From contig NZ_CP012023.1 of the NCBI RefSeq assembly GCF_001308265.1, positions 2,618,932 through 2,682,931 of the forward strand: a stretch of DNA of 64,000 bases, written 5' to 3'. The notes beneath the pieces were generated by a model. It saw only the letters and a program-made list of their open reading frames with translations, had not been told where the DNA came from and searched no databases. This document shows positions 2,054 to 14,275 of the stretch, piece after piece. Every line of letters begins with the position of its first letter. The stretch's first letter is position 1. The position numbers were made by a program, and so were the translations under genes. The stretch is from Celeribacter marinus (GTDB taxonomy: Bacteria > Pseudomonadota > Alphaproteobacteria > Rhodobacterales > Rhodobacteraceae).

Positions 2054-2965
2054 CTATTCGCTGCGAAGTGCGTTGGTGGCGAACACGCAACCGTCTGAAT
2101 ACAGATCGGGCGGCGTCACGCAGAGCCCCCGCGCCACTTGCCACGCCGCAAGCACCTTTGGCACATAGGCGCGGGTTTCGGCGTAGGGCGGCGGGCCTTG
2201 GTGTTTGCTCACCGCGTTTTCGCCCGCATTATACCCCGACAGGGCAAGCGCCAGATCACCGTTGAAATGCGTGAGCAACCAATCGAGGTAGGCAATGCCG
2301 CCTTTGATGTTCTCGGACGGGTTCATCGAGTCCGTCACGCCGAACCGCTCGGCAGTTGCGGGGATCAACTGCATCAACCCCTGCGCCCCTGCCCCGCTTT
2401 GCGCATCGGCCTTGCCCGCGCTTTCGACCGCCATAACCGCCAGTGCCAAGGCAGGGCTGACCTGTGTGCCAATCGAATGAACGAGCAAATCGGTGCCGTA
2501 AGCGTTGGCAATATCTGTGACCTGTTGGAACGTGGGCTTTGACAGGCCTGCCGCTTGCGGAGCATCGAGTGCCTTGAGCGCAAGGGCAAACCGTTCCGGT
2601 GCGGCCCCCGTCACATCATGCGGCACCGCGTTCCAAAACCAGTCCTGTAGATCGGCGGGGACTTCAGGATCCGTGCTTACGCGCACCGTATTGGGCGCAG
2701 TCCCCGCGCCCTCGCCTTGTTGGCGGGCAATATCAGTGGGGCGGATTTGCACGGTGATACGTTTGGACGCACCGCCCACAGGCACACCGATGCGTTTTGG
2801 CGTGACTTTACCCCACGCGGGTTTGGTCGTGACTGTAGTCCCACCCAGCGTTTTGGGCACGATCGGTCCGGCAATATCTTGGGCAAACGCAGGCAAACCA
2901 AAGACCGCGCCGCCACACAGGCCCGCAAAAACCGCCGCGCGCAGATGAGTCGAAGAAAATAACAA
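2054..2965 (-). CDS. Periplasmic lytic transglycosylase (SLT domain)
   Basis: Lytic murein transglycosylase that cleaves the MurNAc-GlcNAc bond of peptidoglycan. A signal peptide of about 28 residues ends at AFA before QD. Residues 30-160 form a variable proline-rich and linker region. The C-terminal part is an SLT (family 1) domain: catalytic Glu181 in AVMAVESAGK, GAQGLMQLIPATAERFG near 193-209, the ALSGYNAGENAV block near 241-252 and PPYAETRAYVPKV near 259-271. Two cysteines near the C-terminus may pair. The gene is transcribed away from the pilus locus next door. Such enzymes often open the cell wall for envelope complexes, but no direct link to the Tad pilus can be shown here. Confidence 0.88.
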   Translation of the reverse strand: MLFSSTHLRAAVFAGLCGGAVFGLPAFAQDIAGPIVPKTLGGTTVTTKPAWGKVTPKRIGVPVGGASKRITVQIRPTDIARQQGEGAGTAPNTVRVSTDPEVPADLQDWFWNAVPHDVTGAAPERFALALKALDAPQAAGLSKPTFQQVTDIANAYGTDLLVHSIGTQVSPALALAVMAVESAGKADAQSGAGAQGLMQLIPATAERFGVTDSMNPSENIKGGIAYLDWLLTHFNGDLALALSGYNAGENAVSKHQGPPPYAETRAYVPKVLAAWQVARGLCVTPPDLYSDGCVFATNALRSE

Positions 2966-3345
2966 TAATCTATACCTAACTACGCGGTCTCCCCGCGCTC
3001 CATCCGATCGGTTTGTTGCAAGATCGCAAAAAAAGCCACCTCAAGCCAGTCATTAGAGGCATTTCGAGATCAATTGCATTTGATCATTAATCCTCTTTTT
3101 ACCCTGCAAGCAGATTTGTTAGAATTGGTTAAGATTTAATATCGTTACTTATCAATTACTTAAGTGCATAAGTCTCTAAAATTTTCATAGTTCCAAAAAC
3201 GTACCAATGCTGCCCCACTCTTGCCCCAGTTCGGGGGCCATATAGCCTCATCGAAACGCAGACAGCGACCAACTGGTACGGGAAACACCAGCGCCGAAGC
3301 GCCAAGACGTGGACATGAAATTAACGACCCTAGGAGGGACTGACT
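2966..3345. promoter_or_regulatory. 380-bp AT-rich divergent regulatory region upstream of flp
   Basis: No credible gene. The region separates the transglycosylase (minus) from the first flp gene (plus) and is more AT-rich than its surroundings between about 3050 and 3200. It contains TTAC-N7-TTAC followed directly by TTAA at 3145-3163, which is loosely like a CtrA site (TTAA-N7-TTAA) but not canonical. A strong Shine-Dalgarno AGGAGG at 3332-3337 sits eight bases before the flp ATG. If the AT-rich block holds the promoter, the 5' leader is more than 150 bases long. Confidence 0.5.
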
Positions 3346-3543
3346 ATGAAATTCTTCAAACTCGCAAACCGCTTTAACCGTGACGAAGACGGCGCTGTAA
3401 CTGTTGACTGGGTTGTTTTGACATCCGCAGTTGTTGGCCTCGGCGTTGCAGTTCTCACAACTGTTGCAAACGGTACAAAATCGCTCGGCTCGACAATCTC
3501 CGCAGATCTCGCAGCTCGCACAACTACAATCAGCGGCTTCTAA
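3346..3543 (+). CDS. flp: Flp/Fap-type pilin subunit, copy 1
   Basis: Type IVb prepilin of 65 residues, the major subunit of the Tad pilus. A 16-residue basic leader ends in D-E-D-G; predicted cleavage is after Gly16, giving a mature N-terminus AVTVDWVVLT. The hydrophobic helix runs from about residue 17 to 42. Position +5 is Asp21 where classical Flp pilins have Glu, followed by Trp instead of Tyr. The gene is preceded by a very strong AGGAGG site. The second copy 41 bases downstream encodes exactly the same protein with 13 synonymous differences. The processing peptidase is at 13781-14275. Confidence 0.93.
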   Translation: MKFFKLANRFNRDEDGAVTVDWVVLTSAVVGLGVAVLTTVANGTKSLGSTISADLAARTTTISGF

Positions 3544-3584
3544 TCTAAGCCCCGCTTGACCACTCACACACAAGGAACACTGAT

Positions 3585-3782
3585 ATGAAATTTTTCAAAC
3601 TCGCAAACCGCTTTAACCGTGACGAAGACGGCGCTGTAACTGTTGACTGGGTTGTTTTGACATCCGCAGTTGTTGGCCTCGGCGTTGCAGTTCTCACAAC
3701 TGTTGCAAACGGCACAAAGTCCCTCGGCTCCACAATCTCCGCCGACCTTGCTGCACGTACAACGACCATCAGCGGCTTCTAA
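3585..3782 (+). CDS. flp: Flp/Fap-type pilin subunit, copy 2 (identical protein)
   Basis: Second flp gene; its 65-residue product is identical to copy 1. Codons 4-42 are also identical at DNA level, while codon 3 and 12 codons between 43 and 61 differ, all silently. The Shine-Dalgarno is AAGGA at 3572-3576. A perfect hairpin terminator follows at 3827-3858, so the two pilin genes probably form their own highly expressed transcript, separate from the assembly genes. Either copy could supply the pilus; the duplication may simply raise dosage. Confidence 0.93.
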   Translation: MKFFKLANRFNRDEDGAVTVDWVVLTSAVVGLGVAVLTTVANGTKSLGSTISADLAARTTTISGF

Positions 3783-3826
3783 GCGAACTGAGATCTCGGG
3801 CCCAACGGGTCCGAGCAAAACACACC

Positions 3827-3858
3827 AAATCCGCGCCCTGCATTTGGGCGCGGATTTT
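3827..3858 (+). terminator. Terminator after the flp pair
   Basis: Perfect 12-bp stem (AAATCCGCGCCC with GGGCGCGGATTT) around a seven-base loop, ending in TTTT. It isolates the two pilin genes from cpaB, 190 bases downstream. A smaller hairpin with one mismatch (3796-3814) precedes it. Confidence 0.85.
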
Positions 3859-4045
3859 ACGCATGACGCACCACGCATCGCCCCAGACAGCGCAATCCAA
3901 GATCGCGGACCCCGCTTCGTCGGATGTTAAGCAAAAATCCTTATCACCGCCGCGGGTCCACCACCTGAATGCCACATTTGCACGCGATGCTATGTCCAAG
4001 TCGTTCAGGGTTTTGTCTCAAAACCCGTAGAAAGAGGAAAACCAC

Positions 4046-4888
4046 ATGCGCCTTATCTTTGGACTTGTACTGGTCATCGGCATGGCCCTTGCTGGCTTTG
4101 CTGTTCACATGACCCGTGGCTATATGTCGACGTATCAGGCCGAACTTGCCGCCGAAAAGGCAAACCGCACCCAGATCGTCAAAACCGAGGACATTTTTGT
4201 CCTGACAAAGAGCATTTCATATGGTGACGCCGTGACACCCGATTTGGTGAAGCTCGTGCGTTGGCCACTCGACAGCATGCCCGAGGGCGTCTTTCGCACA
4301 CCCGAGGAATTGTTCCCAGAGGGTCTTGAAGTCCCGCGTATCGCGCTGCGTGCCGCCGAAGCAATGGAGCCGATTTTAGCCATCAAAGTCACCGCACCAG
4401 GTGAAGACGCAGGCGTGGCCTCGCGCCTTGGCCAAGGGATGCGCGCCTTTGCGATCTCCGTGGATGTCTCGACGGGTGTGTCCGGCTTTTTACGTCCGGG
4501 CGACCGCGTCGATGTCTATTGGAGTGGCCGCCTGCCCGGCTCACAAACCGATGTCACCAAACTCATTCAGTCGTCGATCCCGCTTGTCGCCGTGGACCAG
4601 ACATCCGATGGCGAGCGCAAATCGCCGACGATTGCGCGCACCGTCACCGTCGAAGTGACGCAAGAACAGGTTGCAGCCTTGGCTCAAGCACAGTCATCGG
4701 GACGCCTTTCACTGGCTCTTGTCGGGCGCGACGATCAAACAACGGTCGGTGCCGTTCAGGTCGATCAAAACTCTCTGCTTGGCATCGAAGAACAAGTACT
4801 GGTTGAGGCCGAACGCGCCCGCGTTTGCACTGTGCGCACCCGTAAAGGGGCCGAAATCATCGAAATGCCGATCCCCTGCGCACAATAA
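4046..4888 (+). CDS. cpaB: Tad pilus assembly protein CpaB/RcpC
   Basis: Periplasmic component of the Tad secretion channel, 280 residues. The N-terminal segment (about residues 3-22) is a hydrophobic signal or anchor. A SAF-type domain follows (about 45-110: D-I-F-V-L-T, Y-G-D-A-V-T-P-D, then P-R-I-A-L-R-A-A-E-A-M-E-P-I-L), and the RcpC domain contains GVSGFLRPGDRVDVYWSG. CpaB proteins help the secretin, possibly by binding peptidoglycan or sugar. Shine-Dalgarno AAAGAGGAA precedes the ATG. A stable hairpin with a T-run follows the stop, so cpaB looks like a separate transcription unit or an attenuated first gene before cpaC. Confidence 0.9.
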   Translation: MRLIFGLVLVIGMALAGFAVHMTRGYMSTYQAELAAEKANRTQIVKTEDIFVLTKSISYGDAVTPDLVKLVRWPLDSMPEGVFRTPEELFPEGLEVPRIALRAAEAMEPILAIKVTAPGEDAGVASRLGQGMRAFAISVDVSTGVSGFLRPGDRVDVYWSGRLPGSQTDVTKLIQSSIPLVAVDQTSDGERKSPTIARTVTVEVTQEQVAALAQAQSSGRLSLALVGRDDQTTVGAVQVDQNSLLGIEEQVLVEAERARVCTVRTRKGAEIIEMPIPCAQ

Positions 4889-4911
4889 TCAGCACGGCGA
4901 CCAAAACTTTT

Positions 4912-4946
4912 GCGCGCACCCCAATCCTAAAGGGTGCGCGCGTTTT
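4912..4946 (+). terminator. Hairpin with T-run between cpaB and cpaC
   Basis: Perfect 10-bp stem (GCGCGCACCC with GGGTGCGCGC) around a ten-base loop, followed by GTTTT. It lies 24 bases after the cpaB stop and 186 bases before cpaC. It may end the cpaB transcript or only reduce read-through. Confidence 0.75.
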
Positions 4947-5131
4947 CAATGCCTTATGGTGCATTTGAGCGGTGAGCCGCTGGCTTTTTTTGCGCTCGAT
5001 CTATGCCAAACCCACATCACAAAAGTCCGCCAAGAGATTGATTCTTGCAAAAAATTGCCGTTTGGCGCATGTTAACGGTAATCGGGGCGCTAGACCCCAT
5101 TTTTGAGGCGTGATCAAAGAGGCAGGATCAC

Positions 5132-6574
5132 ATGAAAATGATGAATATATTTAAAGCCGCCCTTATCGGGTGCGCCGTAATTGGGACTACCCCGACAGGG
5201 GCATTCGCCGATAAACTTCGTGTCATGACTGGCGCGCCATCGGGGACGCTCAATGTCCCGATGAACCGCGCAGTTGTGGTCGAAAGCGACGAACCCTTTG
5301 CAGAAATTTCAGTCGCCAACGCGGAGATCGCGGACATCTCGACATTGTCGGATCGCTCGATCTATGTTTTGGGACGTGCGCCCGGTCGCACAACAATGAC
5401 CCTTTTGGCCCCTGACGGCTCGTTAATCACCAACGTCCAAATTCAGGTCACGCCAGACATTACAGAATTTAAAGAGCGCCTGAAACAGATCATGCCCGGC
5501 GAGGGTATTGAGGTGCGCACAGCAAACGATGGTATCGTGCTTTCGGGCGTCATCTCATCGGTTACGCGGATGGAGCGCGCGGTTGAATTGGCCGAACGCT
5601 ATGCACCGGGCCGCGTGTCCAACTTGATGAACATCGGCGGCACGCAACAGGTGATGCTCAAAGTCCGCTTTGCCGAAATGGCGCGGTCGGTGTCCAAAAA
5701 CCTATCGTCTTCTGTGGGCTTTCTCAATGATATCAACGTCATCGACCCCGCCACCGGCGCGATTGATGCGGCGACCAATTGGTCGGGTGGTTCATCTGGG
5801 ACACTCATTGGCGCAGCCAACGGCGTCACGGGCGCACTTACGGCCAAAGACGATGCACTGGGCGCAATCAAGTTTGGCGGATCTTTGGGTGGCGTCGAGT
5901 TGGCGGTCGTCCTCGAGGCGATGGAGCAAAAAGGCGTTGTACGCACTTTGGCAGAGCCGAACCTCACCGCGCTTTCGGGCCAACAGGCGAAATTCCTTGC
6001 GGGTGGAGAATACCCTATTCCAGTACAAACACCCAATGGCATCGTGATTGACTACAAACCCTTCGGTGTTGAACTCGAATTTATCCCGCGCGTGGTCAAT
6101 GGCGATCAGATCAACCTCGAACTTAAGGCGGCGGTATCGGGGATCGACAGCACGGTCAGCTACGCTATTGACGGCTTTTCGCTCAATTCGTTTAAGCGCC
6201 GCGAAGCGTCGACCACGGTAGAAATGCGCGATGGTCAGAGCTTTGCAATCGCGGGCCTGTTGCAAGATGATTTCCAAGATCTCAACGGTCAGGTGCCGTG
6301 GTTGGGTGACATTCCTGTCTTAGGGGCGTTGTTCCGCTCTATGGACTATCAGCGCGCTCAATCAGAGCTGGTGATCATTGTGACACCGCACCTTGTATCG
6401 CCAACTTCAGGTGCTGCATTGATCCTTCCAACGGACCGCGTTCGCGTCCCGACCGAAGCTGAAATGTTCCTCTTTGGCAAAACCTTTGGGGGTACGACCA
6501 AGCCTCAATCCGGCGGTGCAGGCGAAGTGGCGAAACAGGACTTCCAAGGGTCCTATGGCTACGTGATGGAGTAA
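5132..6574 (+). CDS. cpaC: Tad outer-membrane secretin CpaC/RcpA
   Basis: Secretin of 480 residues forming the outer-membrane pore for the Tad pilus. A signal peptide ends near residue 26 (G-A-F-A before D-K). The N-terminal pilus assembly N domain (about 30-110) contains the VANAEIADISTLSDRSIYVL block. A BON-like domain follows, and the secretin core runs from about 180 to 425 with VRTLAEPNLTALSGQQAKFL, GVELEFIPRV and the terminal signature QVPWLGDIPVLGALFRS plus SELVIIVTPHLVSP. Length is typical for the family. The OmpA-like lipoprotein gene starts four bases after the stop, so the two are surely co-transcribed. Confidence 0.93.
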   Translation: MKMMNIFKAALIGCAVIGTTPTGAFADKLRVMTGAPSGTLNVPMNRAVVVESDEPFAEISVANAEIADISTLSDRSIYVLGRAPGRTTMTLLAPDGSLITNVQIQVTPDITEFKERLKQIMPGEGIEVRTANDGIVLSGVISSVTRMERAVELAERYAPGRVSNLMNIGGTQQVMLKVRFAEMARSVSKNLSSSVGFLNDINVIDPATGAIDAATNWSGGSSGTLIGAANGVTGALTAKDDALGAIKFGGSLGGVELAVVLEAMEQKGVVRTLAEPNLTALSGQQAKFLAGGEYPIPVQTPNGIVIDYKPFGVELEFIPRVVNGDQINLELKAAVSGIDSTVSYAIDGFSLNSFKRREASTTVEMRDGQSFAIAGLLQDDFQDLNGQVPWLGDIPVLGALFRSMDYQRAQSELVIIVTPHLVSPTSGAALILPTDRVRVPTEAEMFLFGKTFGGTTKPQSGGAGEVAKQDFQGSYGYVME

Positions 6575-6578
6575 TCAG

Positions 6579-7235
6579 ATGCGTGTCACGACAACAACAG
6601 CACTTACGGCCTGCGCCCTCTTTGCGCTCACAGCCTGTTCGGATTCCAAAGCATTTTCCGGCTTTTACCAAGAGGCCGGTGGCTACCTGAATGCCGGTGA
6701 TTTTGGCAACGCCACTATGAACAACACCTTGGTTCATAATGGGGAACTCAAATACGCCGTGAACCTCAACGAGCGGTTTGCCTCCTCCGTGCCCACAACG
6801 GTGAACTTTGCATTCAACTCCGCCGTTTTGGACGCAGCATCGCGCGCCGTCATCGCGCGTCAGGCGCATTTCATCTCGCAATTCCCCGAGGTGCGGTTCC
6901 GTGTCTACGGGCATACCGATCTTGTCGGCTCGGACGCGGCGAACAAACGCCTTGGCCTGCGCCGCGCACAGGCAGTTGTGAACGAATTGGCCCGCGCGGG
7001 GATCTCCAAATCACGTCTTGAGGCCATGGTCTCATATGGCGAAAGCCAACCTATTGTTGCGATCGACCAACCCGAACGCCGCAACCGCCGCACCGTGACC
7101 GAAGTGTCAGGGTTCGTCGAGAGCGATCCGATTGTGATGGATAGCCGCTACGCCGACATCGTGCACCGCGAATACATCGAAAGCGCAACGGCGCCGTCCG
7201 AGCTGATCAAATTTGGTGAGGAAGAAACCAAGTAA
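6579..7235 (+). CDS. OmpA-domain lipoprotein in the cpaD position of the Tad locus
   Basis: Probable outer-membrane lipoprotein of 218 residues. The signal peptide ends in a lipobox L-T-A-C with Cys20. The C-terminal half is an OmpA/MotB peptidoglycan-binding domain: NFAFNSAVLDAASRAVI near 77-93, the YGHTDLVGSDAANKRLGLRR block near 109-128 and RRNRRTVTEV near 167-176. In other Tad loci the gene after the secretin is cpaD/rcpB, a secretin pilotin-like lipoprotein. This protein takes that position but has an OmpA fold, so it may anchor the secretin to the cell wall. The role is inferred from position and domain. Confidence 0.85.
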   Translation: MRVTTTTALTACALFALTACSDSKAFSGFYQEAGGYLNAGDFGNATMNNTLVHNGELKYAVNLNERFASSVPTTVNFAFNSAVLDAASRAVIARQAHFISQFPEVRFRVYGHTDLVGSDAANKRLGLRRAQAVVNELARAGISKSRLEAMVSYGESQPIVAIDQPERRNRRTVTEVSGFVESDPIVMDSRYADIVHREYIESATAPSELIKFGEEETK

Positions 7236-7330
7236 ATTTTATCAATGTTGTGAAATAGCGAATTATTACGCGATTTTGGCCCCATTGTTGCCCACATTCA
7301 CCGTCACCTTCTTCTTATTGGGAGCAGTAT

Positions 7331-7350
7331 GTCCGACCACCGAGTCGGAC
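7331..7350 (+). terminator. Small hairpin between the OmpA-like gene and cpaE
   Basis: Perfect 7-bp stem (GTCCGAC with GTCGGAC) around CACCGA in the 202-base gap before cpaE. No T-run follows, so it may be an RNA structure or weak terminator only. Confidence 0.35.
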
Positions 7351-7437
7351 TGCGCGTCAAAAGAACAGGTGGCGGTTTTGGTTTAAAACATTGCCTTTGC
7401 TCTTTCGGCGCTCCGACATGAGAGAAGGACGCAGGCA

Positions 7438-8694
7438 ATGACGAGTGAAACTGCATTGCAGACCAACGCACCTCTGGTGGCATGTACCATCAGCCGTGAC
7501 GTGCAAAACTTCGATCTTTTGATCGAAGATATGGAGGACGCACTGGGCGAAGCCTGGGGTGATCTGTCATTCGATGATGCACGCCAATTTTTCCGTCAGC
7601 CTGATAGCGGTAGCCTGAAATTCGTGGCCGTGGCCATTGATCAACAGGACGAAAGCGCATTGGCGATGATCGCGGAGTTGATCAAATCCGCCAAGGTACA
7701 AGGCGTTAAGGTGATTTTGATCGCGGACGAAGTGTCGCCCATGGCGCTGCATCAGCTGTTACAATTAGGCGCCGAAGATTTCATTCCCTACCCGCTTCCA
7801 GAGAACGCATTGAACGAGGCTATTGCACGCCTTGACCGTCCTGAAAAAGCGCCGGCAGTCGATTTTGTCGAGACATCCGCAGGCACGCTCTACGGCAAGT
7901 CAAAGAGCAACCGCAATGGCGTGGTCTTGCCTGTGCAGGCCGTGTGCGGTGGCGCAGGGGCGACAACATTCGCCGTGAACCTCGCCTGGGAACTCGCCAA
8001 TATCGAAAAGAAAGCACCTCAGCCACGCGTCCTTTTGATCGACCTCAACCTACAATACGGCTCGGTATCGACCTATCTCGACCTGCCACGCCGCGAGGCC
8101 GTGTACGAGCTTTTGACCTCAACCGAGTTGATGGATGATGACAGTTTTCGTCAGGCCTTGGTCGAGTTCAATGACACATTGGCCGTGATGACCGCGCCGC
8201 CTGACCTGCTCCCGCTCGACTTCATTAGCAGTGAGGACATCGAACGCTTGATCGACATGGCCAAATCGCAATTCGACTACGTGGTCGTGGATATGCCAAC
8301 CACTTTGGTCAACTGGACCGAAGCCGTTTTGACCGCCTCCGAGTTCTATTTCGTCCCGTTCGAATTGGATCTGCGCTCGGCGCAAAACATCATGCGTCTG
8401 CGCACCGCCCTTCAGGCCGAAGATTTGCCATGGGAGAAACTGCGGTTCTTGTTGAACCGTGCACCCAAAGCCATGGACCTTAACGCGAAATCACGGATCA
8501 AACGCCTATCCGAGAACCTCGAAATTGCAATTGACGTGCAGCTACCGGACGGCGGCAAGATTGTCCGAGAAGCCTGCGATCAAGGTCTCCCACTTGCCCT
8601 TGAGGCCGCCAAATCCCCGCTGCGCAAAGAGATTATGAAACTCGCCGCATCGATACACGCCCACCAAGTAGAACATTTGGAAGCCGCCGAATAA
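7438..8694 (+). CDS. cpaE: Tad localisation ATPase CpaE/TadZ
   Basis: MinD/ParA-like protein of 418 residues that places the Tad machine at its cellular site. The N-terminal receiver-like domain (about 10-135) lacks a clear phosphoacceptor constellation. The P-loop domain begins near 163: VCGGAGATTFAVNLAWEL, in which the usual lysines of the deviant Walker A motif are absent (GGAGATT at 171-177). This is common in TadZ proteins. The switch region is LLIDLNLQYGSVSTYLDLP. Shine-Dalgarno GAGAAGGA precedes the ATG. cpaF follows after 31 bases, so cpaE to cpaA probably form one transcript. Confidence 0.92.
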   Translation: MTSETALQTNAPLVACTISRDVQNFDLLIEDMEDALGEAWGDLSFDDARQFFRQPDSGSLKFVAVAIDQQDESALAMIAELIKSAKVQGVKVILIADEVSPMALHQLLQLGAEDFIPYPLPENALNEAIARLDRPEKAPAVDFVETSAGTLYGKSKSNRNGVVLPVQAVCGGAGATTFAVNLAWELANIEKKAPQPRVLLIDLNLQYGSVSTYLDLPRREAVYELLTSTELMDDDSFRQALVEFNDTLAVMTAPPDLLPLDFISSEDIERLIDMAKSQFDYVVVDMPTTLVNWTEAVLTASEFYFVPFELDLRSAQNIMRLRTALQAEDLPWEKLRFLLNRAPKAMDLNAKSRIKRLSENLEIAIDVQLPDGGKIVREACDQGLPLALEAAKSPLRKEIMKLAASIHAHQVEHLEAAE

Positions 8695-8725
8695 GGCCGC
8701 CCAACTCCCTTGAGGAATACCGAGT

Positions 8726-10171
8726 ATGTTTTCGAGATATAAAAAAGATGACGCCGCAAAGGCGCAACCCGTTCCAGAAGCCGCCGCCCCAAGGGCGACC
8801 GCGGCCCCAACAGGCGCGGCCCCGCACAAAACTGCGGTGACCAGACGTGTGATCGCAAAAGCGGCGCAGGTCGTCCCAGCGGACAAGGAAATCAAACGCA
8901 AGGAACGCATTTCAGACATCAAGGTCGAGATGCACAAACGCCTGCTCGAAGATCTCAATCTCTCCGCCCTCGAACAAGCGCCCGAGAAAGAGCTGCGCGC
9001 AGAGATTTCGGCCATCACCGCCGAGGCGCTCACCGATTTGGGCATGGTCCTCAACCGTGACGAGCGCGCAACATTGAACCAGAACCTCTATGACGAGGTG
9101 CGCGGTCTTGGCCCGCTTGAAACACTTTTGAAAGACGACACCGTCAACGATATTCTCGTAAACGGCCCGCAACAGATTTTTGTGGAACGTGATGGCAAAC
9201 TGCAACTCACGGACATCACATTCAAAAACGAAAAGCACCTGTTGCGGATTATCGACAAAATCGTCTCCGCCGTGGGTCGCCGCGTCGATGAGAGCAACCC
9301 CTATGTGGATGCCCGTCTTGCCGATGGATCGCGCTTTAACGCCATGGTGCCGCCCGTGGCCGTGGATGGCTCGCTCGTCTCCATTCGTAAATTCAAAAAA
9401 GAGAAACTGGCGATCGACGATCTCGTGCGCTTTGGTGCCTTCACCGAAGAAATGGCCGTGTACCTTCAGGCCGCCGTGTCCTCGCGCCTCAACGTGATTG
9501 TATCAGGCGGTACGGGGTCGGGTAAAACCACCACGCTCAACGCCCTCTCGTCTTTTATCGACGACGATGAACGCATCCTCACAATTGAGGACACCGCCGA
9601 ACTTCAACTCCAACAAACCCACGTGGGCCGCATGGAAAGTCGTCCTGCCAACGTCGAGGGCAAAGGCGCCGTGTCTCAACGCGATTGTCTCAAAAACGCC
9701 CTGCGTATGCGTCCCGACCGGATCATCGTCGGTGAAACCCGTGGCGAGGAAGTGATCGACATGCTTCAAGCGATGAACACCGGCCACGACGGATCAATGA
9801 CCACGATCCACGCCAACTCCGCGCGTGATGGTGTGTCGCGTCTGGAAAACATGATCGCTATGGCCGGGATCGAAATGCCGCTCAAGGCCGTGCGCTCGCA
9901 AATCTCGTCGGCTGTGAACCTCATCGTTCAGGCCTCGCGCCTACAAGATGGCTCGCGCCGCATGACATCAATCACCGAAATCACCGGCATGGAAGGTGAC
10001 GTCATCTCCATGCAAGAGGTGTTTCGCTATCAGCGCACCGGCTTGACGCCCGACAATAAAATCATCGGTCACTTCACGGCGACTGGTGTGCGGTCACACT
10101 TCTCCGAGCGGTTCCGCATGTGGGGCTACGATTTGCCCGCATCGCTATACGAACCCACGAAACCCTCTTAA
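8726..10171 (+). CDS. cpaF: Tad secretion ATPase CpaF/TadA
   Basis: Hexameric secretion ATPase (VirB11/PulE superfamily) of 481 residues that powers pilus assembly and possibly retraction. The first 60 residues are Ala/Pro-rich and likely flexible. The N-terminal domain contains [20 protein letters not shown]. The Walker A motif is GGTGSGKT at 261-268, followed by the Asp box near IEDTAELQL, Walker B in [20 protein letters not shown] and the His box [19 protein letters not shown]. All catalytic elements are intact. Confidence 0.95.
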
Positions 10172-10189
10172 GGCAGGTCAGGAAACGCC

Positions 10190-11158
10190 ATGGTCCTTAC
10201 TATTGAACCCATCATCTACGGGATTGTCTTTATCGCCGTGCTCTTACTTGTTGAGGGCATCTATCTCACCGTTTTCGGCAAGAGTATTTCGCTGAATTCA
10301 AAGGTGAACCGGCGCTATGAGATGCTTGAGAAAAACGGTGATCGCGAGCAGGTGCTCAACCAGCTTCGCAAGGAGATGGGCCAACACCTGCGCTCGCGCC
10401 AGATCCCGCTCTACTCCATCCTCGCCGAGAAAGCGCAAAAGGCCAATATTGCCTTTACGCCTGTCCAGCTCTTGATGGTTATGGGGTTTTTGGGTGCGTT
10501 CGCCTTTGTCGGCTTGACCATCGGAACCGCGACCTCTGTGCCAATACGTGCCATAGTGTCCGTCGTGATCGGGGTTGGTGCGGTGTTCGTCTGGATCAAC
10601 GGCAAAGCCAAAAAGCGCCTGTCGATGATCGAGGAGCAACTGCCCGATGCGGTTGAGCTTATGGTACGTTCCTTGCGTGTCGGACACCCCTTTGCCAACG
10701 CACTAAACATTGTCGCCAAAGAAGTTCCCGATCCGTTGGGCACCGAAATGGGCGTGATCGCGGATGAAAGTGCGTACGGGCGCGATGTCGGCGAAGCTCT
10801 CAAAGATATGGCTGAACGCCTTGATATGCAGGATTTGCGCTTTCTCGCCGTGGCGGTGTCAATCCAACAACAATCAGGCGGCAACCTTGCCGAAGTACTG
10901 GATGGATTGGCCAAGGTGATCCGCTCACGCTTCAAACTGTTTCGACGCGTAAAGGCAATTACGGCTGAGGCCGCATGGTCGGGTAAGTTCCTGTCGGGCT
11001 TTCCTGTCGGCGCTCTCATCCTCATCGCGGTCGGCAAACCTGACTATTTCGACACCGTGAAAGACACAGGTGCCTTCATCCCTGCCGCCCTCATCGTCGC
11101 GGGATTTCTCGTCGCCAACGTCTTTGTGATGAAAGCTCTTGTGAACATCAAAGTTTGA
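10190..11158 (+). CDS. tadB: Tad inner-membrane platform protein TadB
   Basis: Inner-membrane protein of 322 residues in the T2SS F (GspF) superfamily. Membrane segments are visible at about 5-25, 95-115, 120-140, 275-295 and 300-320. The cytoplasmic GspF domain contains EEQLPDAVELMVRSLRVGHP and later VSIQQQSGGNLAEVLDGLAKVIRSR, the diagnostic TadB/TadC signature. It pairs with TadC to form the platform on which CpaF works. It starts 18 bases after cpaF and is followed 49 bases later by tadC. Confidence 0.93.
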   Translation: MVLTIEPIIYGIVFIAVLLLVEGIYLTVFGKSISLNSKVNRRYEMLEKNGDREQVLNQLRKEMGQHLRSRQIPLYSILAEKAQKANIAFTPVQLLMVMGFLGAFAFVGLTIGTATSVPIRAIVSVVIGVGAVFVWINGKAKKRLSMIEEQLPDAVELMVRSLRVGHPFANALNIVAKEVPDPLGTEMGVIADESAYGRDVGEALKDMAERLDMQDLRFLAVAVSIQQQSGGNLAEVLDGLAKVIRSRFKLFRRVKAITAEAAWSGKFLSGFPVGALILIAVGKPDYFDTVKDTGAFIPAALIVAGFLVANVFVMKALVNIKV

Positions 11159-11207
11159 TCGACCCTTTGCCCGACAAGGCCAAAACGGCCCTACAAGGAT
11201 ACTCCCT

Positions 11208-12182
11208 ATGACGGATCTTTTTACAAAACTACTCGGTGAAGAGCTTGGCCCCTTTGGTCCGCTGATCTTAATCGGTGTGCTTGGCGCCGTGATGATCCTC
11301 GCGGCGTTACTGATGCTGATGAACAAGCGGCGAGATCCGTTTGACCGCCTGACGGATTCAAGCCACGGCAAGGATCGCCATGTCAAAGGGGCGAAACTGC
11401 GCGACGAAAAAAAGGTCGACAAGCTCCAAAAATATGCGGCCTTTCTCGAACCGCAAAACGAAGAAGAGTATTCCGCAGCACAGCTCACCCTCATTCAGGC
11501 GGGGTATCGCGGCAAGAACGCCGTTCGCATGTTCCACTTTTCACAATTCGCATTGGGCCTGAGCCTTTTGGCGTTTGGTCTGATCCTCGCCATGATCAAA
11601 AGCCAGACACAAGAACTTAGCACCCAAGCAATGATCATGCATATCATCCTTCCGGGTGGTATTGGATACTACTTCCCAAAGTATTGGGTCACGCGCCGCG
11701 TTGAAGCCCGTAAGGAAGAAATCACCAACGGCTTTCCCGATGCGCTCGATCTCATGCTGGTTTGTGTTGAGGCGGGTCAATCACTGGATCAGTCAATTAT
11801 CCGCGTTGCTCGCGAAATCCGTTCCGGCTTTCCCGCCCTTGCCGACGAATTCGACATCGTCAGTTTCGAGATCAAGGCGGGCAAGGATAAGGTCAATGTT
11901 CTACGCGATATGGCCGAACGCGCTGGCGTGGCCGATGTTGCGTCCTTTGTGACGGTACTTATTCAATCACAGGCCTTTGGGACGTCCATTGCCGATGCAT
12001 TGCGGATATACGCCGCCGAAATGCGTGATAAACGCGTGATGCGCGCCGAAGAGGCCGCAAACAAGTTGCCTACCAAGATGACCCTTGCCACAATGATGCT
12101 CACCGTGCCGCCGCTGTTGATCATCCTGATTGGTCCGTCGGTCTATGATATTTACACGCTGCTCAACACCACAAAGTTCTAG
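11208..12182 (+). CDS. tadC: Tad inner-membrane platform protein TadC
   Basis: Second GspF-superfamily membrane protein, 324 residues. Hydrophobic segments occur at about 12-40, 105-125, 140-155 and 295-315. The conserved central region is GFPDALDLMLVCVEAGQSLD, followed by MAERAGVADVASFVTVLIQS and GTSIADALRIYAAEMRDKRV. With TadB it builds the pilus platform. The Shine-Dalgarno AAGGA lies eight to twelve bases upstream of the ATG. The TPR lipoprotein gene follows after 42 bases. Confidence 0.93.
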   Translation: MTDLFTKLLGEELGPFGPLILIGVLGAVMILAALLMLMNKRRDPFDRLTDSSHGKDRHVKGAKLRDEKKVDKLQKYAAFLEPQNEEEYSAAQLTLIQAGYRGKNAVRMFHFSQFALGLSLLAFGLILAMIKSQTQELSTQAMIMHIILPGGIGYYFPKYWVTRRVEARKEEITNGFPDALDLMLVCVEAGQSLDQSIIRVAREIRSGFPALADEFDIVSFEIKAGKDKVNVLRDMAERAGVADVASFVTVLIQSQAFGTSIADALRIYAAEMRDKRVMRAEEAANKLPTKMTLATMMLTVPPLLIILIGPSVYDIYTLLNTTKF

Positions 12183-12926: not shown

Positions 12927-13781
12927 ATGCGCAAAATTGTAATGATTTCGCTAGCTCTTACGGGCGCGATGGCTCTTTCGGGATGCGAAGGTGCCATGTC
13001 CGAAGTGAAGCGGGCAAAAACGGGCGTCAATGTGATTGACGAAAGCAACCTCAACGAATTGATGCTCGGCGCGGCCGACCCTAACGAGGCTGTGTCCTAT
13101 TTCTCGCGCTCTGTTGCCCAAGACCCCTCGCGCTCAGACCTAAAACGCGGGCTTGCCAAATCGCTCATCCGGTCAGGCAACGCAGACGCCGCCGTCAAGG
13201 CATGGGAAGCCGTGATGAAACACGACGACGCGACCAGCGACGACCGTGTGGATTACGCCGATGCCCTGATCCGCATTGGCGATTGGAAAGGCGCGGAAAA
13301 GCAACTCAACGCCGTACCACCAACCCACGAGACCTATAAACGCTACCGCCTTGAGGCGATGATTGCCGACAGCAACCAAGAGTGGAAAAAAGCCGATAGT
13401 TTCTACGAAACCGCAGCCGGCCTAACCACCAAGCCCTCGTCCGTGCTCAACAACTGGGGCTACTCCAAATTGACACGCGGTGAATTTAAAGATGCCGAAG
13501 TCCTGTTTGGCCGCGCCATTACCTATGACCCCTCCCTCTTTACCGCCAAAAACAACATGGTGTTGGCGCGCGGAGCACAAGGTAAATACGATCTTCCTGT
13601 TGTCGAAATGACCCAGATCGAGCGCGCACAATTGCTCTACACCCTTGGCCTGTCTGCCGTGAAGTCGGGCGATGCCGTGATGGGTAAGGGACTGATCAAA
13701 GAGGCGATTGAAACGCATCCACAACACTTCGAGGCCGCCGTGCGCAGCTTGCGCGCCCTTGAGGACAATGTGACGAACTGA
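12927..13781 (+). CDS. Second TPR lipoprotein of the Tad operon
   Basis: TPR-containing lipoprotein of about 284 residues, exported through a signal peptide with lipobox L-S-G-C. I chose the ATG at 12927 because AAAGGG lies 11 bases upstream; an in-frame GTG at 12915 has no such site. Repeats are visible from about 55 to 200 (SYFSRSVAQDPSRSDLKRGL, KAWEAVMKHDDATSDDRVDY, NNWGYSKLTRGEFKDAEVLF). The stop overlaps the ATG of the prepilin peptidase by one base (TGATG). A 120-base gap precedes it. Likely a periplasmic scaffold of the Tad machine, perhaps specialised relative to the shorter TadD. Confidence 0.85.
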   Translation: MRKIVMISLALTGAMALSGCEGAMSEVKRAKTGVNVIDESNLNELMLGAADPNEAVSYFSRSVAQDPSRSDLKRGLAKSLIRSGNADAAVKAWEAVMKHDDATSDDRVDYADALIRIGDWKGAEKQLNAVPPTHETYKRYRLEAMIADSNQEWKKADSFYETAAGLTTKPSSVLNNWGYSKLTRGEFKDAEVLFGRAITYDPSLFTAKNNMVLARGAQGKYDLPVVEMTQIERAQLLYTLGLSAVKSGDAVMGKGLIKEAIETHPQHFEAAVRSLRALEDNVTN

Positions 13782-14275
13782 TGCTGACACTTTCAACAGG
13801 TGCGGCCCTTTGGTTTCTTGTGGCCACTACGCCGGTGGCGTTTGTGAGCGCATTTAACGATCTCAAACGCATGAAATTGCCCAACGCATTGGTGTTGGTT
13901 TTGGTGGCGATCTATGTGATCAGCGGACCATTTGTGTTGTCGTTCGAGCAATATCTATGGGGCTTTGCGCACGGCGTCATCATGTACGGCGTCGGAATGT
14001 TTTTGTTCATGTTCGCAGGCGTTGGTGCGGGCGATGGTAAATTTGCCGCTGCGATGTCCATGTTCATTCCCTTGGCCGATGCCATGCCCGTACTGATGAT
14101 CTTTTGCGCATTCTTACTTGGTGCATTTACGGCCCACCGCATCCTCCGCGCGGTCCCTGCCATACGCCGCGCCACACCCGATTGGGTGTCATGGGGCCAC
14201 AATAAATTTCCGATGGGCCTCGCCTTGGCAGGCACGCTTATCACCTATTTCGCAATCGCAACCTTTGGTGCGTAG
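13781..14275 (+). CDS. cpaA: Prepilin peptidase CpaA/TadV
   Basis: Integral membrane aspartic protease (family A24) of 164 residues that removes the Flp leader after glycine. The two catalytic aspartates are Asp27 (FNDLKRMKLPN) and Asp85 in the G-x-G-D-like motif GAGDGK. Five or six hydrophobic segments cover the protein. It lacks the N-terminal methyltransferase domain of PilD, as is usual for TadV. Its substrates are the Flp proteins encoded at 3346-3782. It is the last gene of the operon, converging with the membrane protein on the minus strand with only eight bases between. Confidence 0.92.
   Translation: MLTLSTGAALWFLVATTPVAFVSAFNDLKRMKLPNALVLVLVAIYVISGPFVLSFEQYLWGFAHGVIMYGVGMFLFMFAGVGAGDGKFAAAMSMFIPLADAMPVLMIFCAFLLGAFTAHRILRAVPAIRRATPDWVSWGHNKFPMGLALAGTLITYFAIATFGA

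Follow-up and report, generated by a model that had tools for sequence, protein, structure and literature searches.

A pair of pilin genes beside the tad cluster

The window, that is, the whole stretch of 64,000 nucleotides that was analysed (bases 2,618,932-2,682,931 of a single-contig genome of 3,096,705 bases), contains two tandem genes, flp1 and flp2, with a cluster of tad/cpa genes downstream (Table 1). The original prediction that these two neighbours encode a single 65-residue protein was right, both in the product and in the placement of the genes: the two open reading frames translate identically. The tad/cpa cluster encodes RcpC/CpaB, a secretin, an OmpA-domain protein and an AAA protein (CpaE-like), followed by a T2SSE-type ATPase (CpaF), TadB and a TadC-like T2SSF protein. 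Two more distant pilin-like genes are found in the same genome (G000) outside the window, at C1:2489130-2489267 (L121) and C1:2072630-2072773 (L122).

Table 1. Features of the flp1-flp2 region, in window positions
Feature	Position	Strand	Basis
53-nt conserved element upstream of flp1 (probable promoter region)	3193..3245	+	
flp1, 65-residue Tad-type prepilin	3346..3543	+	ORF translation; tad operon downstream
flp1 codons 4-42, identical block	3355..3471	+	copy-to-copy comparison
flp1 codons 43-61, 12 silent differences from flp2, 0 amino-acid changes	3472..3528	+	
41-nt spacer preceding flp2	3544..3584	+	
flp2, same 65-residue prepilin as flp1	3585..3782	+	ORF translation
flp2 codons 4-42, identical block	3594..3710	+	copy-to-copy comparison
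flp2 codons 43-61, 12 silent differences from flp1, 0 amino-acid changes	3711..3767	+	
Perfect 12-bp inverted repeat, probable terminator between flp2 and cpaB	3827..3857	+	fold z -5.77
tad/cpa genes	4046..12182	+	Pfam families; cpa/tad names partly by position
Type IV prepilin peptidase (A24)	13781..14275	+	

The name flp rests on genomic context and a sequence motif, because the protein matches no curated Flp profile in Pfam or NCBIfam. In Pfam it reaches DUF4244 (E 0.0027) and Clostridium_P47 (E 0.061), both under the cut-off, and nothing in NCBIfam is matched; two of its relatives likewise reach no curated Flp profile in Pfam. Automatic annotation may therefore miss Tad pilins of this kind. 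The context is that of Flp/Tad major pilins, with tad/cpa assembly genes and a prepilin peptidase adjoining the twin genes. The product has a leader ending in Gly and an acidic-aromatic pair at mature positions 5-6, and the motif G16/AVTV-D21-W22 (the slash marks the presumed cleavage site) is invariant across 19 aligned proteins. An AlphaFold model of moderate confidence (mean pLDDT 75.9, pTM 0.40) predicts a single helix over residues 2-57, and a profile of the present pilins finds no PDB chain up to E 1. According to the published account, the Tad pilin of Caulobacter crescentus is small and all-helical, its leader is cleaved before Ala, and in the pilus its N-terminal end lies in the core with the C-terminal end facing outward (PMC11067988). 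By our own count, mature position 5 is acidic and the next residue aromatic in both pilins (E19-Y20 in Caulobacter, D21-W22 here; PMC11067988).

The 53-nt element lies 101-153 nt 5' of flp1. It is strongly conserved within the genus and is still recognisable in other genera. In 60 of 70 loci its best match scores higher than every one of 100 base shuffles, but the consensus was built from 17 of these, and the remaining loci score 43/53; two of the missed loci had less than 60 nt of upstream sequence. The element probably serves the pilin genes as a promoter or as the binding site of an activator.

The comparisons below draw on a collection of 175 pilin genes from 68 loci. These comprise the loci of the 30 best matches and 40 further regions, from 40 of 313 matching genomes, which were chosen by hand for having at least two nearby matches among the matches listed, so arrays are over-represented and the copies resemble the query. 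The longer L118 and L119 stand in for L020 and L024; L019, L025 and L027 were dropped (contig ends); duplicate, short or off-array loci were left uncounted (L001, L032-L040, L043-L047, L049-L079, L120-L123, L125-L128 and L130-L132); and L124 and L129 enter later comparisons only. The genus is represented by 20 genomes including the window's, and 16 of them (all except G006, G010, G012 and G013) enter the orthologue comparison of codons 4-42 and the upstream and spacer comparisons. A search of the genus around G108 and another around G390, both aimed at close relatives, each added a single genome. Pairs below 85% mature identity were excluded from the silent counts over 66 pairs, and those below 80% from the tests of twin matching. 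Pilin arrays are broken or contain a run of N at L013 (1128-1273) and at the contig ends of L019, L025 and L027; copy numbers in such draft assemblies are thus unreliable.

Block structure of the silent differences

As had been described from the sequence, codons 4-42 of the two genes are identical, codons 43-61 carry 12 silent differences and codon 3 carries one, and there is no amino-acid change. All 13 nucleotide differences are in third positions (codons 3, 43, 45, 46, 49, 53-58, 60 and 61). The 117 nt of codons 4-42 lie within an identical run of 119 nt, and the second-longest identical run is 15 nt. This block structure is not due to chance. Given 13 differences among 63 degenerate codons, a clean run of at least 38 has an exact probability of 7.0e-6; the contrast between 0 of 38 differing codons in the 5' block and 12 of 22 in the 3' block gives P = 4.6e-7 (Fisher test); and none of 200,000 permutations, weighted by the position-specific silent rates of other pilin pairs, left codons 4-42 without a difference. 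The conversion-tract test that had been proposed gave a divided answer. In a GENECONV-like scan of third positions (465 pairs from 31 genes), the window pair was the top fragment with a pairwise P of 0.0005, the lowest value that 2,000 permutations allow. The global P of this fragment, 0.11, was not significant. When all polymorphic sites were scanned, the window pair was absent from the 22 fragments listed.

The two blocks also differ in how far their silent sites have drifted. If each gene chose its codons independently, following the codon usage of related pilin genes, 11.9 +/- 2.3 differing codons would be expected in the 3' block, where 12 are seen, and 19.6 +/- 2.9 in codons 4-42, where there are none. 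The 3' halves are thus silently saturated and the 5' block is young. The agreement in the 3' block also bears on the idea that selection favours the silent differences in codons 43-61 because they prevent deletion by recombination between the copies. Such selection would fit a region in which 12 of 22 degenerate codons (43-64) have changed and the amino acids have not. However, the count is that of random independent choice, and many twin genes in other genomes carry few or no silent differences. We consider this idea very improbable.

Codons 4-42 might instead be constrained as RNA or in codon choice, for example by a structure, a regulatory site or a translation ramp, so that the two copies keep the same codons independently. 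Several observations are of the kind that such a constraint would produce. There are no silent differences in 38 degenerate codons; D21 is GAC in 164 of 174 genes; codons 14 and 21 lack a silent difference in 65 and 66 pairs, respectively; and several positions between 18 and 37 show slightly more codon homozygosity than expected. A like layout is seen in the G019 pair (0/38 vs 9/21) and, more weakly, in the L003 pair (4/37 vs 8/21). Related species, however, do not share the silent choices. The comparison covered 34 genes in 16 genomes, namely G101 and 15 of the 19 that share the window's genus; each gene differs silently from the window's codons 4-42 at 7-20 of 25-34 same-residue codons, and every degenerate position of the block has at least two synonymous codons among the 175 genes. 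The identical block is therefore not common to orthologues, and the alternative of an RNA or codon constraint, which the original prediction had held open, is not supported. Nor did a comparison of synonymous rates in the two blocks reveal a general 5' constraint: over 66 adjacent within-genome pairs the rates are similar, 368/2387 (15.4%) in codons 4-42 and 184/1375 (13.4%) from codon 43 onward. The RNA fold of codons 4-42 is no better than that of shuffles (z 0.60), and the one Rfam match up to E 1 within window positions 2500-5000 is below the gathering score and lies outside the genes (3790-3859). We rejected RNA constraint on the average fold, the Rfam search without a match in the genes and the family-wide silent usage, and we give it hardly any weight.

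A recent tandem duplication, followed by replacement of one 3' half with DNA from another lineage encoding the same residues, would likewise leave an identical 5' block next to a diverged 3' block. Nevertheless, the sequences immediately upstream of flp1 and flp2 differ, and no donor with the same residues is found among the 34 compared genes, each of which is at least 6 residues off in codons 43-62. Each 3' half of the window pair is nearest its twin (11 nt, vs at least 17 in 7 other genomes), and the twin 3' half is also the nearest among all loci. This scenario strikes us as unlikely, and a simple recent duplication, which had been argued against from the start, does not agree with the saturated 3' silent sites and the differing upstream sequences.

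We favour ectopic homologous recombination, either gene conversion or an equivalent unequal crossing-over, that homogenised the 5' block after the silent sites of the 3' halves had become saturated, and we give this reading a probability of roughly 0.8. flp1 and flp2 would go back to an old tandem duplication of the major pilin gene in the Tad locus, and their 3' halves would have remained separate long enough for silent sites to saturate. Later, recombination between the neighbours would have copied codons 4-42 of one gene onto the other, either as a conversion tract or by unequal crossover and subsequent loss of the extra copy. The diverged stretch is probably a poor substrate for recombination (the longest shared run is 15 nt in the 3' half and 119 nt in the 5' block), so the 5'/3' boundary may reinforce itself. 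Selection acting on top of this could keep the amino-acid identity of the exported part. We infer, rather than observe, RecA dependence, the feedback through substrate length, and the direction and date of the transfer. The earlier proposal of gene conversion in the 5' half thus finds its best-supported form in homogenisation by recombination between old copies; conversion as such is not separable from unequal crossing-over, which has the same end product.

Recombination between copies in related genomes

Four related species bear directly on recombination between the copies. The spacer between the genes is orthologous in G001, G007, G017 and G019 (z 5.9-11.6), so the duplication there predates these species. 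Nonetheless, the copies are closer to each other than to the nearest orthologue compared in five of eight segments, with two ties and one reversal. In codons 2-42 the twin is closer in G019 (0 nt, vs 3 nt for the orthologue) and G007 (3 vs 4 nt), tied in G017 (3 vs 3 nt) and farther in G001 (13 vs 9 nt). In codons 43-60 it is closer in G017 (0 vs 10 nt), G001 (3 vs 14) and G007 (3 vs 8), and tied in G019 (8 vs 8). Because the segments that favour the twin vary by genome, the homogenised segment differs between species. The window's own flp1-flp2 spacer has no similarity at z above 3 among the spacers of ten related genomes and is not detectably orthologous to them; the pair's presumed age is read from silent divergence only.

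In the wider collection of 66 pairs, codons 43-59 are closest to those of the twin in 63 pairs and codons 16-42 in 50; the window's own pair belongs to both counts. Codons 16-42 are conserved family-wide, and in 16 of the 66 pairs they are equally close or closer to another genome. The reverse mosaic occurs in L113 (5' 12/38, 3' 0/21), and clean 3' parts are found in L080, L082, L105, L119 and one pair of L095. Among 38 pairs with at least 6 silent differences, the longest clean run is significant at P < 0.05 in only eight, two of them from locus L118; sharp mosaics like that of the window are thus uncommon. Unequal crossing-over or another change in copy number also occurs, as indicated by identical spacers in the three copies of G018 and the four copies of G101. 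Arrays of four pilin genes at L080 (1676-2560) and three at L006 (1282-1911) have identical spacers, which points to recent tandem amplification.

Amino-acid identity between twins with diverged silent sites

In twin pilins the amino-acid sequence of the exported C-terminal region is mostly the same, even where silent sites have diverged. Among 108 adjacent pairs, 71 share at least 80% mature identity (hereafter twins) and 37 are below 75%. In 15 genomes the twins are separated by 5 or more silent differences in codons 43-64, and 10 of these genomes show no amino-acid difference there; L083, L086 and L109 are exceptions, with twins differing by 5-7 residues. All 15 have fewer amino-acid differences in codons 43-64 between twins than against the nearest gene from another genome in the sample. 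The silent fraction of the same twins is higher than that against the nearest genome in 10, equal in one and lower in four, although the nearest genome is mostly distant and saturated at silent sites, so that L008, L085, L090 and L112 are the fair cases. These nearest-genome tests, together with tests on disjoint pairs, replaced a comparison that used silent fractions across all genomes to match paralogues with orthologues. We abandoned that comparison since distant, strongly codon-biased genomes give low fractions.

The cleaved leader serves as an internal reference. Between species, with 18 disjoint closest genome pairs as the yardstick, residues differ at 25.4% in the leader and 24.5% in codons 43-64. 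In contrast, among the 31 twins with 6 or more silent changes, 18.5% of leader residues differ, against only 6.2% in codons 43-64 (P 4e-5, Fisher test on counts). No such contrast with the leader is seen for the transmembrane part, codons 16-42, in the set of all twins (P 0.50). Relative to silent changes, amino-acid changes in the leader are also somewhat rarer in twins than between species (P 0.044), and the effect is thus strongest in the C-terminal part and not wholly confined to it. A pooled Fisher P of 2e-21 used non-independent genome pairs and is not relied on. The strong purifying selection originally proposed holds in that the protein is conserved between the copies, but it is too simple: the C-terminal region varies between species as the leader does and is near-identical only between twins in the same cell.

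The near-identity of the C-terminal region may reflect selection that favours subunits matching within a filament, or coordinated sweeps in which both genes acquire a new surface variant. We speculate, at about even odds, that there is a matching constraint, under which a C-terminal change persists only when recombination carries it into the twin, while the leader is freer to change. Such a constraint might stem from the entry of both pilins into a single filament, or from the need for both to evade a common pilus-binding phage. If it exists, protein identity would be kept within the cell while the same region diverges between species.

Homogenisation of paralogues is a known phenomenon; what is of interest here is that Tad pilins are matched at the protein level. 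Conversion between tufA and tufB in enteric bacteria is a familiar case, and histone and ubiquitin genes also encode identical protein with many silent differences; for all of these, the parts played by conversion and purifying selection are debated. Those proteins, however, are conserved between species too, whereas here the C-terminal part is near-identical only within a genome. The twins provide a natural case, repeated across a bacterial family, that separates homogenisation of DNA from homogenisation of protein. With silent sites near saturation and the exported protein matched, one can test whether assembly into a homopolymeric filament favours identical subunits, and how proteins of this type are able to change through recombination between tandem genes as short as these.

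In a study of interlocus conversion, homogenising amino-acid changes were estimated to outpace non-homogenising ones in 163 of 164 data sets from teleosts and 14 of 14 from yeast (Yang et al. 2023, PMC10503786). Those duplicates resemble the twin pilins in being kept alike at the protein level, but they are eukaryotic, whereas ours are tandem bacterial pilin genes. Among the papers listed on pilin gene conversion, and on Tad/flp paralogues and protein-identical paralogues, no report of this for Tad pilins was found, which is weak evidence that none exists.

A divergent pilin-like gene often lies 3' of the twins, for example at L091 (1984-2169) and L093 (1130-1315). These genes perhaps encode minor pilins.
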